Shown here: positions 6,799-20,283 of the stretch, piece after piece
How the letters are laid out: every line of letters begins with the position of its first letter
How positions within the stretch are numbered: position 1 is the first letter of the stretch
Virus record (IMG/VR): IMGVR_UViG_3300047300_000465
Coordinates: 1-20,635 of that record
Source: a virus
Strand: one strand, 5' to 3'
Length of the DNA: 20,635 bases
Translations under genes and position numbers: made by a program
The notes under the pieces: generated by a model
Seen by the model: the letters and a program-made list of their open reading frames with translations, nothing else
Databases searched by the model: none
What the model was told of the DNA's origin: nothing

Positions 6799-7279
6799 TC
6801 AAAACCTCAAGAACTTGATTGTAAGAATCTATGCAGGCATTCAGTTGAGCAGTGTTCCTATCGCCTTGAGCGACTATTTCTGCGATGGCTGCGAGGGTTG
6901 CTCTTTCGGAATCAGTAGGTCCGTTAGGCGTTGGGTCAGGTTCACTTCTCTTTTCGTTCCGATCTGTGGCGGTAGGGGTGGGACTTTGGGGGGCTGATAC
7001 ACAACTGGTGGAGGGGAGGCGCACCCTGCCAGCACGGATAGCACGATCAAGAGCAGACTGTTTTTGATTGACAACATTGTTAGCCTCTTGCAGTTGAGTT
7101 GAGGTTTCGTTAATCTTTTCTGTGAGTTTTTGTTCTTTCTCACGCGACTCGGCATTTTTCTTGGCTATCTCAATTTGCATCTCTTGGTCGCGCTGTGTCC
7201 ATCCTTTATGGTGTCCGTAGCCATAAAACGCCCCCAGAGCGATTAAAACCGCCAAGATAAGCCAAGGGTTCGGTTTCAT
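6785..7279 (-). CDS. Rz: Rz-like inner-membrane spanin
   Basis: Spanins fuse inner and outer membranes in the last step of lysis of Gram-negative hosts. This 164-aa protein has an N-terminal membrane anchor (WLILAVLIALGAFYGYG, residues 6-22). A long charged periplasmic coiled coil follows (about 30-85: KNAESREKEQKL, KINETSTQLQEAN), then a Pro/Ser/Thr-rich stretch and a C-terminal helix. The layout is that of an i-spanin. The outer-membrane partner Rz1 is nested in another frame, a classic arrangement. The start overlaps the preceding stop as ATGA. Confidence 0.88.
   Translation of the reverse strand: MKPNPWLILAVLIALGAFYGYGHHKGWTQRDQEMQIEIAKKNAESREKEQKLTEKINETSTQLQEANNVVNQKQSALDRAIRAGRVRLPSTSCVSAPQSPTPTATDRNEKRSEPDPTPNGPTDSERATLAAIAEIVAQGDRNTAQLNACIDSYNQVLEVLNGKR
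6874..7077 (-). CDS. Rz1: Rz1-like outer-membrane spanin lipoprotein, nested in Rz
   Basis: This 67-aa reading frame lies wholly inside Rz in a different frame. It begins MLSIKNSLLLIVLSVLAGC, a lipoprotein signal with lipobox LAGC (Cys19). The proline-rich stretch PPPVVYQPPKVPPLPPQ follows, the hallmark of Rz1, and then a short charged tail. I start at the ATG at 7077, with AAGAGG seven bases upstream; the frame is open further upstream only as a shadow. After lipid attachment the mature protein would sit in the outer membrane and bind the C-terminus of Rz across the periplasm. Confidence 0.9.
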   Translation of the reverse strand: MLSIKNSLLLIVLSVLAGCASPPPVVYQPPKVPPLPPQIGTKREVNLTQRLTDLLIPKEQPSQPSQK

Positions 7280-7776
7280 GTTTCGTGCCTTGCAGCGGCT
7301 CTTTCAACCGCGATTTCTTCTTTGGCAGGATCGATGTAATCAGGTGGAGTCGTTGGGGGTGGAGGCGGTCGCCAATCTTCGTCTAGGGCTGGATTCTGAA
7401 AGCCCATCCAGTTGAAACCTGTTGTGTTAACTGGTGCTGGAGTTGATGTGTTTACAGTTGGTTGAGATAAGTTTACAGTCGGCTGCGATGAGTTTACAGT
7501 TGTTGAGAGCTTATCACTCACCGCCTGGACGCCTTTACGAGTCATCACTCCACCAATACCGCCAACGATTAGCAGAACAATGTCGTTAAGCATCTTCGTA
7601 TAGGCTTGGTCAATAGGAGCCATGCTCTTGATCGGCTGAGTTACGAACGTCACCGAGTAAAGCATGAATCCAACGATTCCGGCGAGAATCACAGTGACAA
7701 TGATGACAACGATAGCCCAAACACGGACTTCGATTTCCTCACTTGTCAGAAGGCGGTTGAGTTTGTTGTTGAACAA
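7276..7776 (-). CDS. Two-span membrane protein, probable holin, TTG start
   Basis: This 166-aa protein has a hydrophobic helix at residues 20-42 (WAIVVIIVTVILAGIVGFML) and a second near 63-80 (NDIVLLIVGGIGGVMT). The C-terminal half is polar with three TVN-x-S repeats (about 93-110) and a proline run. Two helices plus a position directly before the spanin and endolysin genes fit a holin, which would open the inner membrane and time lysis. The start is TTG with GGAG seven bases upstream (GGAGAAACAAG); no ATG alternative gives the first helix. The long polar tail is larger than in most class II holins. Confidence 0.6.
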   Translation of the reverse strand: MFNNKLNRLLTSEEIEVRVWAIVVIIVTVILAGIVGFMLYSVTFVTQPIKSMAPIDQAYTKMLNDIVLLIVGGIGGVMTRKGVQAVSDKLSTTVNSSQPTVNLSQPTVNTSTPAPVNTTGFNWMGFQNPALDEDWRPPPPPTTPPDYIDPAKEEIAVERAAARHET

Positions 7777-15397: not shown

Positions 15398-16180
15398 CTA
15401 GCCAACAATAATGTAGGCATAGGTTTTGTCTGCTGTGTTGTTTGCGTAATGTGTTAAGGTAGCAGTGCCTTTACCCTTGGACGTCACGTAAACATTCGTA
15501 GATGCAGCAGGAGCCACATATTGCATGGTTGCAATCACAGAGGGCACAGCCGGACGGGTCGGGGAAGTACCAGCAGGATATTGCTCAATGCTCACGCCTA
15601 CGTCAGAAACTCGCCATATCAATTCCACATAATCATCGGCGTTAAGTTCAACGTAGAAATTCATCGCAGCAATCAAGTGACTTGGATCACCAGAGCTTTT
15701 TCTCGCTGGTAAGGAAAAGCGGCTATTTGAATTAGATATATCAGTGCCGTTCTTTCTGAACCATACATCAACGTCTTGCGTGTCGTTTGTGGTGTTCTTA
15801 AACTGAATTGAAAACTGATAGTTATAGATTCCATAGTTCTTAACATTCAGTCTGGAGCTATTTGATAGCGTCACACCATTAGAGAAATCAGTGGTGTTAA
15901 AAGTGATCGCGTATGCCGTTGTCGTACTTCCCGCAGTCTGGTCGGTAGAGTCCTGAAAAGCCCCATAGGGAGCGCTGTCCTCATAAGCCGCCTCAGAGTC
16001 AGGGACTAGGATAATCACACTATCCGCGCCGATACGATAGTCATTGATCGTTGTCGTGGTGGCATTTCCAGTGGATAAGGTAATAGTCCCTGTGTTATTG
16101 GTTTTCCCGTCCATGATGCCACGGACAACCTCAGAGATACCTCTAAGGTCAGCACCAAACGTAGGAAGACTGCGAAACAT
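15398..16180 (-). CDS. Structural protein with jelly-roll-like (C1q/TNF-type) domain
   Basis: This 260-aa protein begins MFRSLPTFGADLRGISEVVRGIMDGK and carries a beta-rich N-terminal domain (TGTITLSTGNATTTTIND). The central part is predicted all-beta: YGIYNYQFSIQFKNT, then DVDVWFRKNG and LNADDYVELIWRVSD. This pattern resembles C1q/TNF-like jelly rolls found in phage decoration and tail proteins. The C-terminus ends DKTYAYIIVG. It lies between the hub and the ejection proteins, where P22 has its needle and gp14. A head decoration or tail-tip role is possible. The start overlaps the hub stop as TAATG. Confidence 0.65.
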   Translation of the reverse strand: MFRSLPTFGADLRGISEVVRGIMDGKTNNTGTITLSTGNATTTTINDYRIGADSVIILVPDSEAAYEDSAPYGAFQDSTDQTAGSTTTAYAITFNTTDFSNGVTLSNSSRLNVKNYGIYNYQFSIQFKNTTNDTQDVDVWFRKNGTDISNSNSRFSLPARKSSGDPSHLIAAMNFYVELNADDYVELIWRVSDVGVSIEQYPAGTSPTRPAVPSVIATMQYVAPAASTNVYVTSKGKGTATLTHYANNTADKTYAYIIVG

Positions 16181-17829
16181 TAGCGACCACCTTGCGGGAC
16201 AATTTCAACATCCACAGCAGTGGCGTTCTTCCAGTTGTTACCACTTGGGTTAATTTGTATCCTGTGATAATTTCCTGAACTTCTCAAAGAAACTCGATTC
16301 TCTGAGCTTGCATCCACAGCAGTTCCATAGGTAACTTGTTGATTAAGAAGTTGCCTAGACGAAATAGCAATAGATGCCGATCCATTGTCTACTTGAGGTT
16401 TGACCAAAGTCACCACAGTCCTAGCACCTTCACCCAAATCACCCGTAGCCAGTCGAGCAGTCAAATTTGATCCTGTGTAGGTCATTACCGTTGTTCCCTT
16501 AGTACCGCCCAGGAAGTATTTACCACCCATGAACATTAGAGAGTCAAGAGAGATTGCCAAAGCATCAATAGACGCGCTCAAAGTGTCTAGTTCTTCAAGC
16601 GTAGACGATGAGGTGGAACTTTCAGAAATGTAGTCAGTTCCTGCGTCTGCATAAGTCCATTTTTTGGTGGCAAAGTTGTAAATAATCAGGTGTCGGTTTC
16701 CGTCTACACCCTTATAGTTCCAAATCACCAACTTACGGACAGGATCAACAGCAGCAGACATTGACGGAAAATCAAACTCTGAGGCGTCATTAAAGAAGAA
16801 CCGATCAACCTTCTCCGCGCCAATGGGCTGGACAGTCTGACCGTCACACATATAAAAACCATCATCAGACAAGAAGAAAGAGATGCCTTGATACTGAGCG
16901 ATAGAACCAGAGGCAATACATCCTTTATTTCGAGAGATGTTGTCGAATTGGAAAATGAATGGAGTTCCCACGTAGGTCATTCGGTGGATTGCTCTATCCA
17001 AAAAGACAATTCCAAACTCACCACCTCGGATGCCAACAATCTGACCACCATCAGGAATGTCTTGATAGTCTGATTGCGTATTGACGTTTTCAACCCAATC
17101 TGTTTCGTTGTTCAAAGCACTCCAGCGCACTCGATACGGTTTCTGTGAGCCTTCATTTGTATTTGCAACAACAACAAAATCCCTGACTACTGTAATGAAT
17201 TTTGCAATCGGAGCAGAGTCAGAAAGATTTTTAAATGAAGTGCTAGAGGTCAAATCCCATGACTGAAGTCTCTGAGAGTTATTTGTGAAAATAATCTGAC
17301 TGCCAAACTGCGTAAACCGCACTCGATCACCTGATTGTGTCGTGTAGTCAGTTGCGCTAACCTTAATTGTGACATTTCCTGAAGTAGTCGCAGAGGTTGT
17401 CGTCACTGTGAAAGTGTTTGCATCAACCACCGTGATCGTGAAACTTCCATCCGTTGCTGTTCCACTTGTGAAATCCAGATAGATAATATCTCCGGTCTTC
17501 AGCTTATGACCGTTAGACGTAACAGTGAGAGTCGTTGTTCCAGTCTGAGAATAAGTCCCAGTAAATCGGGAAACATCCGTCAAAACGCCAACACCTGAGA
17601 CACTGTAAATTTTAGAAGCGCCAGCAGCAAATAGTTTGGTAGCGCCACTGTTGTCTTTTCCTGCATAAAGAGAGGTCAAATCTTCAGCAGCACTTTGCGA
17701 GAAAGTAGTCGCAGAAGGAAAAGGACCATACCCCACAGCCTGAGAAACTACATTCTTGGCGTCTGTCAGAGCACCAGTAATCCCAGGTTGATCGGGTAGC
17801 CATTCGGTTAGTTGGATTCGTTGCATCAT
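16180..17829 (-). CDS. P22 gp10-like tail hub / packaged DNA stabilisation protein, with inserted beta domain
   Basis: Proteins of this type form a ring under the portal that keeps packaged DNA in the head and joins it to the tail. This one has 549 aa. The pattern LTEWLPDQPGITGALTDAKN at the N-terminus, repeated blade-like segments (KLFAAGASKIYSVS, RVRFTQFGSQIIFTN, KFITVVRDFVVVAN) and VRWSALNNETDW fit the beta-propeller of P22 gp10 (about 472 aa). Residues about 92-157 look like an insertion: a Thr-rich beta module with GHKLKTGDIIYLDF and VVDANTFTVTTT. The position after the adaptor fits. Family assignment is from memory and moderately sure. Confidence 0.65.
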   Translation of the reverse strand: MMQRIQLTEWLPDQPGITGALTDAKNVVSQAVGYGPFPSATTFSQSAAEDLTSLYAGKDNSGATKLFAAGASKIYSVSGVGVLTDVSRFTGTYSQTGTTTLTVTSNGHKLKTGDIIYLDFTSGTATDGSFTITVVDANTFTVTTTSATTSGNVTIKVSATDYTTQSGDRVRFTQFGSQIIFTNNSQRLQSWDLTSSTSFKNLSDSAPIAKFITVVRDFVVVANTNEGSQKPYRVRWSALNNETDWVENVNTQSDYQDIPDGGQIVGIRGGEFGIVFLDRAIHRMTYVGTPFIFQFDNISRNKGCIASGSIAQYQGISFFLSDDGFYMCDGQTVQPIGAEKVDRFFFNDASEFDFPSMSAAVDPVRKLVIWNYKGVDGNRHLIIYNFATKKWTYADAGTDYISESSTSSSTLEELDTLSASIDALAISLDSLMFMGGKYFLGGTKGTTVMTYTGSNLTARLATGDLGEGARTVVTLVKPQVDNGSASIAISSRQLLNQQVTYGTAVDASSENRVSLRSSGNYHRIQINPSGNNWKNATAVDVEIVPQGGR

Positions 17830-18660
17830 TTACCCCTGCAAAAGCCATACGTTACTGTTCTGCGCTTGGCTTGTCCATGTGTTTGACCCCGTACTGTTTG
17901 GAGTCCAAGTGTTTACAGATACCGCTAGATCAGTCCAATCATTGTCCGATACCGTAGCAGTTACCCAAGTATTGTCGCTCTCAGGTATGTCTGACCAGTT
18001 GTCGCCCATGCGAACACCGTTACAAACGACAGTCGCAAGACAAGACACAGACGCATCACCAGCATAAGTAACCGCAGAACCCGAGGAAACAGTCGCTAGA
18101 GCGCTTATTTCAGCCTGGGCAAGCCTTACCCTTATCCCATCGCAAGAAACGCTTGCAGAGCCTGTAACAGAACCTGTCGCTTCTCTTACACGGATTGCTT
18201 CAGCAGTGACAGTCGCAGAGGCTGTGATACTCGCATCCCCTGCTACTACCAAGCCACCATTTGCTGTGACCGTTGCTTCACAAGTAATTGAGGCTGCTGC
18301 ATCTTTGACGATCTGACCCGATGCGGTTACGGTCGCAGTGGCGGAAATATCAGCAGAGCCAAACTGAACCCTGATTGCATCACAAGATACTTGGGCAGAG
18401 ACAGTGATACTCGCAGAGGCGTCTTTGACGATCTGGGCATCACAAGAGACTGAGGCAGCGCAAGAGACACTTCCAGCGCCAGCAAAGATTACGCTAGACC
18501 CTGAAGATACGGTGGCAGTCGCATTGACCGATCCGTAAGCATCCCACAGTGTGACCGATGTTTCGTATAGTTCGCTGTCTAACGAAAGAGTGAGGTCATC
18601 TAAACTCGCCTTGAGGTTGTCAAGTGAGTCTAGTGTCCACGGTGGGAGTAGGTCAGCCAT
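17830..18660 (-). CDS. Repeat protein: nine 20-residue repeats followed by six 10-residue Trp repeats
   Basis: This 276-aa protein has a short helical N-terminus (WTLDSLDNLKASLDDLTLSL). Residues 43-222 are nine consecutive repeats of exactly 20 residues, each of the form (G/A)-S-(V/I)-x-x-x-A-(T/S)-V-x-x-x-x-x-(V/I)-x. From residue 222 Trp appears every 10 residues exactly (222, 232, 242, 252, 262, 272), usually as N-x-W, ending WLLQG. The regular beta-strand spacing suggests a solenoid or stacked fibrous fold. It is encoded between a Gp80-like gene and the hub gene, so it is probably a virion protein. I cannot assign a known function. Confidence 0.75.
   Translation of the reverse strand: MADLLPPWTLDSLDNLKASLDDLTLSLDSELYETSVTLWDAYGSVNATATVSSGSSVIFAGAGSVSCAASVSCDAQIVKDASASITVSAQVSCDAIRVQFGSADISATATVTASGQIVKDAAASITCEATVTANGGLVVAGDASITASATVTAEAIRVREATGSVTGSASVSCDGIRVRLAQAEISALATVSSGSAVTYAGDASVSCLATVVCNGVRMGDNWSDIPESDNTWVTATVSDNDWTDLAVSVNTWTPNSTGSNTWTSQAQNSNVWLLQG
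17995..18534 (-). repeat. 60-bp-period coding repeats
   Basis: This is the DNA behind the nine 20-residue repeats. Short strings recur, such as 'tctttgacgatctg' at 18301-18314 and 18421-18434, 120 bases (two units) apart. Most third positions differ between units, so the repeats are old and held by selection on the protein, not recent slippage. Confidence 0.7.
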
Positions 18661-18661
18661 C

Positions 18662-19048
18662 TCACGCGAGTGTCACGCTCAGAGAACCAGAAGCGATGCG
18701 GAAAACGTCTCCAGTAGAGATAGCCTTAGACGCATCCAGAGCAGTGTGATACAAGAGATTGCCAGAGGTCGAGGCGTCACGAATCCCGATATGCGTCACA
18801 GTACCCCAAGACCCACCAGCTTGAGGAAACTCCACCGCAGCAGAGTTAGTCGTAACCCCATTACTAGGTGAGCCAAAAGTCACAGACTGTCGAGCGTAGG
18901 AAGTACCAGAAACCTCCGTTCCCGTGTCAGCATCGGTCGGGTCTGAGGTATACAGTGCCACATAAACCGTGGTGGGAGTGGTGTAGCTGGTATTACGCAA
19001 AGTCGCGTTAATCAGCGCATTTTCTAAATAATTTGACATTTCAGACAT
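18662..19048 (-). CDS. Gp80-like phage structural protein, 128 aa
   Basis: The sequence SNYLENALINATLRNT, then TTVYVALYTSDPTDADTGTEVSG, SYARQSVTFG and WGTVTHIGIRDA is a pattern I recognise from small beta-rich phage structural proteins (Gp80 type). They are found near tail or fibre genes in many phages. No catalytic residues are known for them. The end GSLSVTLA is the usual closing strand. The gene has GAGG before its ATG and lies two bases upstream of the repeat-protein start and two bases after the adaptor gene, so it belongs to the head-to-tail joining block. Confidence 0.8.
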   Translation of the reverse strand: MSEMSNYLENALINATLRNTSYTTPTTVYVALYTSDPTDADTGTEVSGTSYARQSVTFGSPSNGVTTNSAAVEFPQAGGSWGTVTHIGIRDASTSGNLLYHTALDASKAISTGDVFRIASGSLSVTLA

Positions 19049-19051
19049 GAT

Positions 19052-19669
19052 TTACCTCAGTGAAAGTTTCATTGCGAGAGGAACACCTGAATACTGACCT
19101 TGTTGGTCGGAGATATTCAGAGTCTCGATTGCTCGGTTGTACATAGAACCCCATGTCTGAATCCGAGCATCATTCATAATGTACGGCTCTGCCTCTAGGA
19201 GTGAAGCATACAAAAGCGCATCAGGCGTGTTAGCCATGAAGACGTTGCTTGTGTTTGAGTCACTCAAGAAAGTGGGCGCAGCATAGTACAAGAGTTCAAG
19301 CGTGTAATTTGAATCTGGAATAGGAGCCAGTTCAAACTCCAAAGCCATGATTGTGTAATCAAGAGGCTTTCCACTCTCTGCCCTACGTGTATTCCGAGAG
19401 AAAGACGAAGGGCTAGAGTAAGTCAGAGGTTGGACAGGATTCAGGTCAATGAAAAAATCCCGCACTTCAAGGAAATCTGATGGAAGTTCAACAGTCGAAT
19501 CACCCCCAGTCGTGGAGGTTGTCACTGTCTTGAGCATTTGTCGGATTCGCAACTCACGGCGCAACCTGATCTCTGCGAAACGAATGAAGTCGGGAATTTG
19601 ATCCGTGAGGTCGGTTCTTGCCAAGTAATTAGCAATCGCTGTTTTCAAATCCGAATATGTTGAAATCAT
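19052..19669 (-). CDS. Head-to-tail adaptor protein (gp4 / SU10-adaptor type)
   Basis: Adaptors dock under the portal after packaging and receive the tail. This 205-aa protein is helical at the N-terminus (YSDLKTAIANYLARTDL, then DFIRFAEIRLRRELRIRQM), with a beta part (TVELPSDFLEVRDFFID) and a helical end (PDALLYASLLEAEPYIMND). The pattern matches the SU10-like adaptor family. It corresponds in place to P22 gp4. The start overlaps the glycosyltransferase stop as ATGA. Confidence 0.85.
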   Translation of the reverse strand: MISTYSDLKTAIANYLARTDLTDQIPDFIRFAEIRLRRELRIRQMLKTVTTSTTGGDSTVELPSDFLEVRDFFIDLNPVQPLTYSSPSSFSRNTRRAESGKPLDYTIMALEFELAPIPDSNYTLELLYYAAPTFLSDSNTSNVFMANTPDALLYASLLEAEPYIMNDARIQTWGSMYNRAIETLNISDQQGQYSGVPLAMKLSLR

Positions 19670-20283
19670 AGATCATCCCATCCATATTCATACGTTCCGA
19701 TGTGCCGAATGTGCATTGACAATTCATGGTCAACGTATGTAGGTATCCCATTATCCCATGCCTTCGCACAAAAATAAATGTCTTCTCCTACCAATCCACC
19801 CTTTGCTGTTGTTTCAAACCAGAACCAAGGCTTTTCCATTTGGAATGCTTCTTTTCTGGTTAACACCATGCCAAATCCCACACCTACAATTTGCTCTAGT
19901 CCCTCTTTGCCTTTTGAGAAAACCTTTACAAGTTGATTCGTATTTGGATCAGCATCCAGTGCAGTAGGCTCTACTGGTTTTCTTCGGGTTGTTGCGTTAA
20001 CCCCAACAATAGGAACTTCTCTGCTTAACATGATCTGAAGTGAGTCTTTTGGGAATCTCATGTCAGAATCAATCCAGAGAATCGCATCAGCACCATCGGC
20101 TAAAGCAGTCTCTGCGAGTTTTTGTCTTTGGTTGAATATCAGTGTCCCAGGCATTTGGTAAATCCGCAGGGAACCGCCTTTAGAGCATCTTGTAACCCCA
20201 TCGTAGGCACAGAGTTTGGCAAGATCAAAAGCAAAGCCAGCCATGACCGTATCACGGCAAGGAACACAGATTGCGATATTCAT
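19666..20283 (-). CDS. GT2-like glycosyltransferase (GT-A fold) in the virion block
   Basis: This 205-aa protein has the elements of a family 2 transferase: an N-terminal strand and loop IAICVPCRDTV (3-13), NQRQKLAETALADGADAILW (51-70), the metal and sugar-nucleotide motif DSD (72-74) in WIDSDMRFP, RRKPVEPTA, a GVGFGMVLTRK acceptor segment, GED (166-168) as the likely base region, and a C-terminal HIRHIG. It is shorter than bacterial GT2 enzymes, and no membrane anchor is present. Its substrate is unknown. It is coupled on both sides by ATGA junctions to virion genes, so it is made with the particle and may decorate a virion protein or alter the host surface. Confidence 0.8.
   Translation of the reverse strand: MNIAICVPCRDTVMAGFAFDLAKLCAYDGVTRCSKGGSLRIYQMPGTLIFNQRQKLAETALADGADAILWIDSDMRFPKDSLQIMLSREVPIVGVNATTRRKPVEPTALDADPNTNQLVKVFSKGKEGLEQIVGVGFGMVLTRKEAFQMEKPWFWFETTAKGGLVGEDIYFCAKAWDNGIPTYVDHELSMHIRHIGTYEYGWDDL

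Follow-up and report, generated by a model that had tools for sequence, protein, structure and literature searches.

Organization of the locus

The window analyzed here is a virus record of 20,635 bases. The features considered, all on the minus strand, are the following:

19052–19669, minus strand: SU10-type adaptor protein (PF24175, E = 3.1e-36), the head-to-tail adaptor
18662–19048, minus strand: Gp80-family bead, 128 aa, homologous to gp80 from fibre I of GP4 (PF23140, E = 2.3e-52)
17830–18660, minus strand: repeat protein, 276 aa, proposed as the rope (string) in a beaded fibre of the Gp80 type, based on repeats, synteny, co-occurrence and purifying selection
18535–18660, minus strand: its N-terminal module, residues 1–42, with LD heptads (TLDSLDNLKASLDDLTLSLDS), near-invariant in close relatives; proposed anchor
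17995–18534, minus strand: its residues 43–222, nine uninterrupted 20-residue units; proposed bead-docking string
17833–17997, minus strand: its residues 222–276, with a Trp every 10 residues; C-terminal end module, which also ends distant ropes
16180–17829, minus strand: hub, a P22 gp10-like stabilization protein (phrog_3287, E = 1.4e-72)
16531–16602, minus strand: hub residues 410–433 (TLEELDTLSASIDALAISLDSLMF), matching the N-terminal heptads of the proposed rope (local alignment score 65)

The Gp80 gene lies upstream of the repeat gene, one base apart, and the hub ORF, whose orthologue is annotated as a phage stabilization protein, begins directly past the repeat-protein stop codon. The position between the Gp80-like and hub genes, already given in the initial annotation, is borne out both by annotation and by synteny. 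The order adaptor, Gp80, repeat protein and hub is found in 77 of 80 related viral contigs, with Gp80 just upstream of the repeat gene; the remaining three contigs end within 100 bases of the latter.

Elsewhere in the window, a gene at 19666–20283 (minus strand), among the neck genes, matches phrog_1574 and, weakly, a phage glycosyltransferase family; a close relative, ct2t2046, has a gap free of annotated genes at this position. Two short tandem repeats with a 21-bp period are present at 938–977 (ORF 569–1351) and 7450–7508 (ORF 7276–7776).

Two periods in the repeat protein

Residue identity across residues 43–222 is 0.36 at lag 20, 0.36 at lag 40 and 0.34 at lag 60, corresponding to z values of 11.0, 9.8 and 8.5 (shuffled sequences give about 10% identity). 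For residues 222–276 the peak moves to lag 10 (40% identity, z = 7.7), and Trp residues occupy positions 222, 232, 242, 252, 262 and 272. These values confirm the 20-residue period followed by a 10-residue Trp period that had been read from the sequence initially. The same reading described the units as exact, which holds for their length, as nine units follow each other free of gaps, but not for their sequence, since the units are only 15–55% identical to one another in protein and 32–62% in DNA. The consensus of the unit is roughly [AG]S[IV]T[AG]SATVTAD[AG]IRVQx[GA]S, in which hydrophobic residues alternate at positions 3, 5, 7, 9 and 11, then at 14 and 16.

Tandem Repeats Finder reports no array at the repeat protein gene. 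Together with the low identity between units, this points to an old, selected repeat, and we rejected an origin by recent tandem duplication on the same grounds. The dN/dS ratio of the whole protein is 0.12–0.17, indicating purifying selection, and falls to 0.03–0.05 for residues 1–42 in the more diverged pairs. A chance or low-complexity ORF was rejected on the basis of dN/dS and conservation.

Conservation among close relatives

N-terminally complete relatives fall into two length classes, 276 aa (23 proteins) and 295–296 aa (52 proteins). In the alignment, the difference corresponds to one 20-residue unit, nine versus ten. The comparison of repeat number among related phages, suggested at the outset as a check, thus returned lengths that differ by one whole unit. 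All six Trp residues are invariant across 39 aligned relatives, and the spacing 10-10-10-10-10 is kept in 75 of 76 N-terminally complete relatives. The repeat proteins of Venkman (238 aa) and ctXG6705 (258 aa) are devoid of the N-terminal heptads; in both, the repeat gene is located about 6 kb from Gp80, inside the tail-fibre block.

The N-terminal heptads of the window protein have a counterpart in the hub. A 24-residue LD-heptad segment of the hub aligns to the rope N-terminus with a score of 65, which none of 2000 shuffles reached (best 57). The likeness could stem from an old copying event or from a docking element common to both proteins; docking of the rope by mimicry of the hub segment could be one reading of it.

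The neighbouring gene encodes a Gp80 bead

The window Gp80 scores 177 bits against PF23140 (cut-off 27), the Pfam family named 'Podophage GP4 fiber I protein gp80'. Among PDB sequences it matches chain a of 8JOU (E = 1.9e-14), an entry entitled 'Fiber I and fiber-tail-adaptor of phage GP4' that holds 10 copies of this chain. In agreement with this, a model built from 37 aligned sequences (pLDDT 94) has 8JOU_a as its best PDB fold match (TM 0.89, 1.7 Å).

Tandem Gp80–Gp80 proteins are encoded at two other loci (L103, 6001–6783; L262, 5001–5813), an arrangement that, going by sequence, is compatible with a dimeric working bead. No natural fusion of Gp80 and rope in a single chain was found among the Gp80 loci. 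Two further loci, L315 and L316, have several Gp80 ORFs each, and in L316 one Gp80 domain heads a 1424-aa protein with collagen-like Gly-X-Y repeats. The bead also aligns to part of a 953-residue tail protein of the Haloferax virus HFTV1 (9H4P chain BD; Foldseek probability 1.00, TM 0.53). This archaeal match of the predicted structure suggests that the bead fold may be wider than PF23140.

Predicted structure of the repeat protein

AlphaFold2 prediction of the repeat protein from 39 sequences gave a mean pLDDT of 56 and a pTM of 0.57, and the five models are discordant, with pLDDT ranging from 35 to 56. Residues 41–170 are predicted with moderate confidence and show two strands in each unit; at the two ends pLDDT stays under 50. 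The monomer prediction called for in the initial annotation returned a repetitive two-strand pattern in the repeats, but, at a mean pLDDT of 56, no confident fold. A Foldseek search of the PDB with the model found nothing better than E = 0.2 (probability 0.12). Relatives in BFVD align to it only at about 20–33 Å rmsd; one of these has E = 3.6e-5, yet 33 Å rmsd.

Searches of Pfam, PHROG and PDB sequences with the repeat protein gave nothing above chance, and no Pfam family reached its cut-off. A described solenoid repeat family of the hexapeptide or pentapeptide type was set aside on the latter result. None of the described families in the libraries searched matches the rope. The low-confidence model fits a chain that may need a partner to fold; it proves neither a solenoid nor a rope.

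A 20-residue period recurs near Gp80

Four repeat-protein queries were run by tblastn against 50,697 phage records and matched seven of them. Gp80 is present in all seven, compared with a background of 694 in 50,697; several of the seven are related, so that they represent fewer than seven independent events.

To go beyond sequence similarity, the periodicity itself was measured at 41 Gp80 loci of viral contigs, made non-redundant with a cut-off of 60% bead identity. Among ORFs up to two genes from Gp80, z exceeds 5 in 12 at lag 20, in nine at lag 40 and in six at lag 60, and almost all other lags below 46 give 0 or 1 such ORF. Only 3 of 191 ORFs farther from Gp80 have z > 5 at lag 20. At 62 non-redundant loci, ORFs within three genes of Gp80 were compared over lags 12–30: lag 20 gave the strongest signal in 19 loci, where 3.3 are expected (binomial P = 2e-10), and for 11 of the 19 the period-20 ORF directly follows Gp80 downstream. 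The pool for the 62 loci took in 21 hand-picked or inspected loci; the set of 41 and the bacterial-genome set contained none. By this simple identity-based test, the strongest period is other than lag 20 in most of the 62 loci, and many have no period-20 gene near Gp80. The Gp80 searches used single queries, and the diverse Gp80 alignment has no conserved stretches.

In bacterial genomes, period-20 ORFs were found up to five genes from Gp80 in Paenibacillus, Aneurinibacillus, Vreelandella and proteobacterial assemblies. The smallest of the ropes has about four units (Paenibacillus, 174 aa); larger ones reach 493 aa (locus L310) and more than 1,100 aa (locus L255). In phage MEP402 and in L310, lag 40 is slightly above lag 20, as expected if units work in pairs. 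A unit length of 20 is common to ropes that have no recognisable sequence similarity, which suggests a shared geometric constraint.

Two proteins at other Gp80 loci deserve mention. In Roseobacter phage CRP-4, the gene after Gp80 (L088, 2447–3208) has a strong 8-residue 'ESGDSR' repeat and no clear 20-residue period. Gp11 of Octadecabacter Antarctic DB virus 2 (L094, 7065–8591), three ORFs from Gp80, is labelled 'ribonuclease E' and has repeats of about 20 residues and six Trp at a spacing of 10; it is likely to be a rope.

Modular ends and fusions

The ropes carry different motifs at their N-termini: LD heptads in the window protein, LNxxxLN in BcepMigl-like phages, YGxG in phiM5 and ctjtQ328, and GDSRITE in MEP402 and CRP-4. 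End modules with three to six Trp at a spacing of 10 are present in Venkman, C72C1, phiM5, ctvy9321, L310 and others. The initial annotation had stressed that the second period is half the first. This relation recurs in several distant relatives, but it is not obligatory, because MEP402 spaces its Trp residues by 13.

Furthermore, a Paenibacillus prophage has rope repeats fused to the C-terminal domain of SPP1_Dit (E = 2e-9); in phage PVJ1 they are fused to the baseplate domain of Mu gp48 (E = 2e-21) and in mycobacteriophage Lumos to Gly_rich_2 (E = 1e-26). With the Lumos rope as query, only close kin were matched. Judged from these domain arrangements, the string region is portable and occurs attached to domains of tail or tip proteins.

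Proposed role of the repeat protein

By analogy with GP4 fibre I, we consider it likely that the repeat protein is the string, or rope, of a two-component beaded fibre in which Gp80 forms the beads. Speaking for this are the assignment of the neighbour to Gp80 by sequence and fold, the conserved gene order, the co-occurrence in phage records, the 20-residue period found beside Gp80 in diverse phages, length changes of one whole unit, the fusions to tail or tip domains, the tandem Gp80 proteins and the threaded whisker of Sf14. Counting against it are the distance of several kb between rope gene and Gp80 in Venkman and ctXG6705, the many Gp80 loci where lag 20 is not the strongest period, the missing 20-residue period in Sf14 gp30 and the virion data discussed below. 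Each 20-residue unit, with a capacity for two short β-strands, would be a docking site for the bead encoded upstream, and the beads, probably dimeric, would line up on the string. Of the two ends of the string, formed by the N-terminal heptad module and the C-terminal Trp module, one would attach to the tail and the other would be distal. If the unit spacing of 20 is set by the geometry of the bead, the number of units would set the number of beads and the length of the fibre. Physical binding of Gp80 to the rope, at a single unit or a pair of units for each bead or bead dimer, is inferred, as are the choice of the proximal end and any role in adsorption. On this reading the initial guess of a fibre component was right, the protein being one half of a fibre whose other half is Gp80.

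An initial proposal, that both periodic parts are turns of a self-standing β-solenoid or a trimeric stacked fibre, would make each unit a coil, the Trp region a narrower continuation and Gp80 a mere operon neighbour. The exact period, the two predicted strands per unit and the moderate confidence of residues 41–170 speak for such an architecture, as does the fact that the Trp region, where present, always follows the repeats. We nevertheless regard it as unlikely: it found no support in the prediction (pLDDT 56, discordant models, no PDB fold match with E < 0.2), and it leaves unexplained the specific association of a 20-residue period with Gp80 across unrelated phages. The protein may instead be a shaft or tip protein of a tail fibre, placed in one operon with Gp80 and likewise serving host recognition, that has no contact with Gp80 and is inherited with it as a fibre cassette. 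Operon linkage and co-occurrence would look alike in this case, and the fusions to Dit, gp48 and Gly-rich domains fit any tail appendage. A constant unit length of 20 in ropes lacking sequence similarity, insertions and deletions of exactly one unit, and the direct contact known from phage Sf14 (see below) make this quite improbable.

Evidence from virions bears on whether the protein is part of the particle at all. Proteomics of JC1 virions lists Gp80 (59% coverage) and leaves the rope unlisted (PMC9144972), and the annotation of phiM5 flags Gp80 as detected in particles and leaves the rope unflagged. Both observations would suit a non-virion protein, such as an assembly factor, encoded among the tail genes. 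Against this, gp56 of BcepIL02, a rope orthologue, is annotated as virion-associated, and the repeats are fused to structural tail domains elsewhere; we therefore consider a non-virion protein very improbable.

A wider reading of the fibre string is one to which we give about an even chance. Strings of 20-residue units threading Gp80 beads would be a widespread, unnamed molecular ruler, in which about four to several dozen units set both bead number and fibre length and the ends are exchangeable. Such a ruler would span phages of the podo-, sipho- and myo-type, in Gram-negative as well as Gram-positive hosts, and the different ends (LD heptads, LNxxxLN, YGxG, Trp at a spacing of 10, Gly-rich, Dit and gp48) would fix the module at different places of the virion. 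No description of a general 20-residue rule was found in the literature searched.

So far, Gp80 has been associated with a single solved fibre, of which it forms the bead. Should the rope reading prove true, a simple rule, namely repeat units with a length of exactly 20 residues in the vicinity of Gp80, would identify strings of beaded fibres among many phage genes that are unannotated or misannotated, for instance as 'serine-rich adhesin', 'E3 ubiquitin-protein ligase HERC6' or 'ribonuclease E'. In addition, length control becomes a testable question: does the unit number determine the bead number, as the length of the tape measure determines that of the tail?

Comparison with known beaded fibres and whiskers

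A structure of this kind is already known from one podophage, GP4, and, by analogy, from the whiskers of Sf14. In fibre I of GP4, an elongated 'rope' protein reportedly connects five dimers of gp80. The window bead is like that of the Ralstonia podophage (PDB 8JOU; Zheng et al. 2023, J Mol Biol 435:168258) in Pfam family PF23140, sequence and fold, and an elongated second protein is encoded beside it (adjacent in 77 of 80 contigs), as would be expected of a GP4-type fibre. The GP4 relatives BcepMigl, DC1 and BcepIL02 likewise encode a protein with a 20-residue period directly after Gp80. In contrast to the window rope, these ropes have no LD heptads and no terminal Trp region, and they share no Pfam or PHROG family with it. 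PDB sequence searches with such BcepMigl-type ropes gave chance matches only, and nothing from 8JOU. A counterpart in position and architecture is phrog_19041, a virion structural protein of Bcep22-like phages that comes next after Gp80 and has units of about 20 residues; it has no detectable sequence similarity to the window protein.

Gp35 of Alishewanella phage LSH1 is a Gp80-like dimer (HHpred match to 8JOU_g) in an extra structural module, gp34–gp36 (PMC13243795). Unlike the window locus, this module is described in that paper with no repeat rope named. The Anabaena myophage A-1(L) has a beaded neck fibre, five per particle, made of at least two protein types from one operon (PMC10966104). 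Its beads are gp81 trimers joined head to tail and modelled without a string (PMC10966104), and we set this bead chain aside as a model for that reason.

A solved precedent for a threaded bead comes from neck whiskers. Foldseek matches the window bead to 9C39_K and to chains of 9MT4, neck proteins of Sf14 and Bas63 (TM 0.54–0.73), with TM 0.62/0.72 and E = 3.6e-4 for 9C39_K. The whiskers of Sf14 are made of gp30 and gp31 dimers, and one gp30 chain 'threads through' both whiskers (PMC11821841). The likeness to Gp80 resides in gp31, which the Gp80 profile also finds, and gp30 comes from the adjacent gene. A dimer of the Gp80 fold with a threading partner encoded next to it thus exists. The Sf14 whisker is short, has no multi-bead chain and belongs to a phage with a contractile tail, and gp30, of 166 aa, has no 20-residue period, unlike the window rope. 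By analogy, the repeat rope would be a multi-unit version of the Sf14 threading partner.
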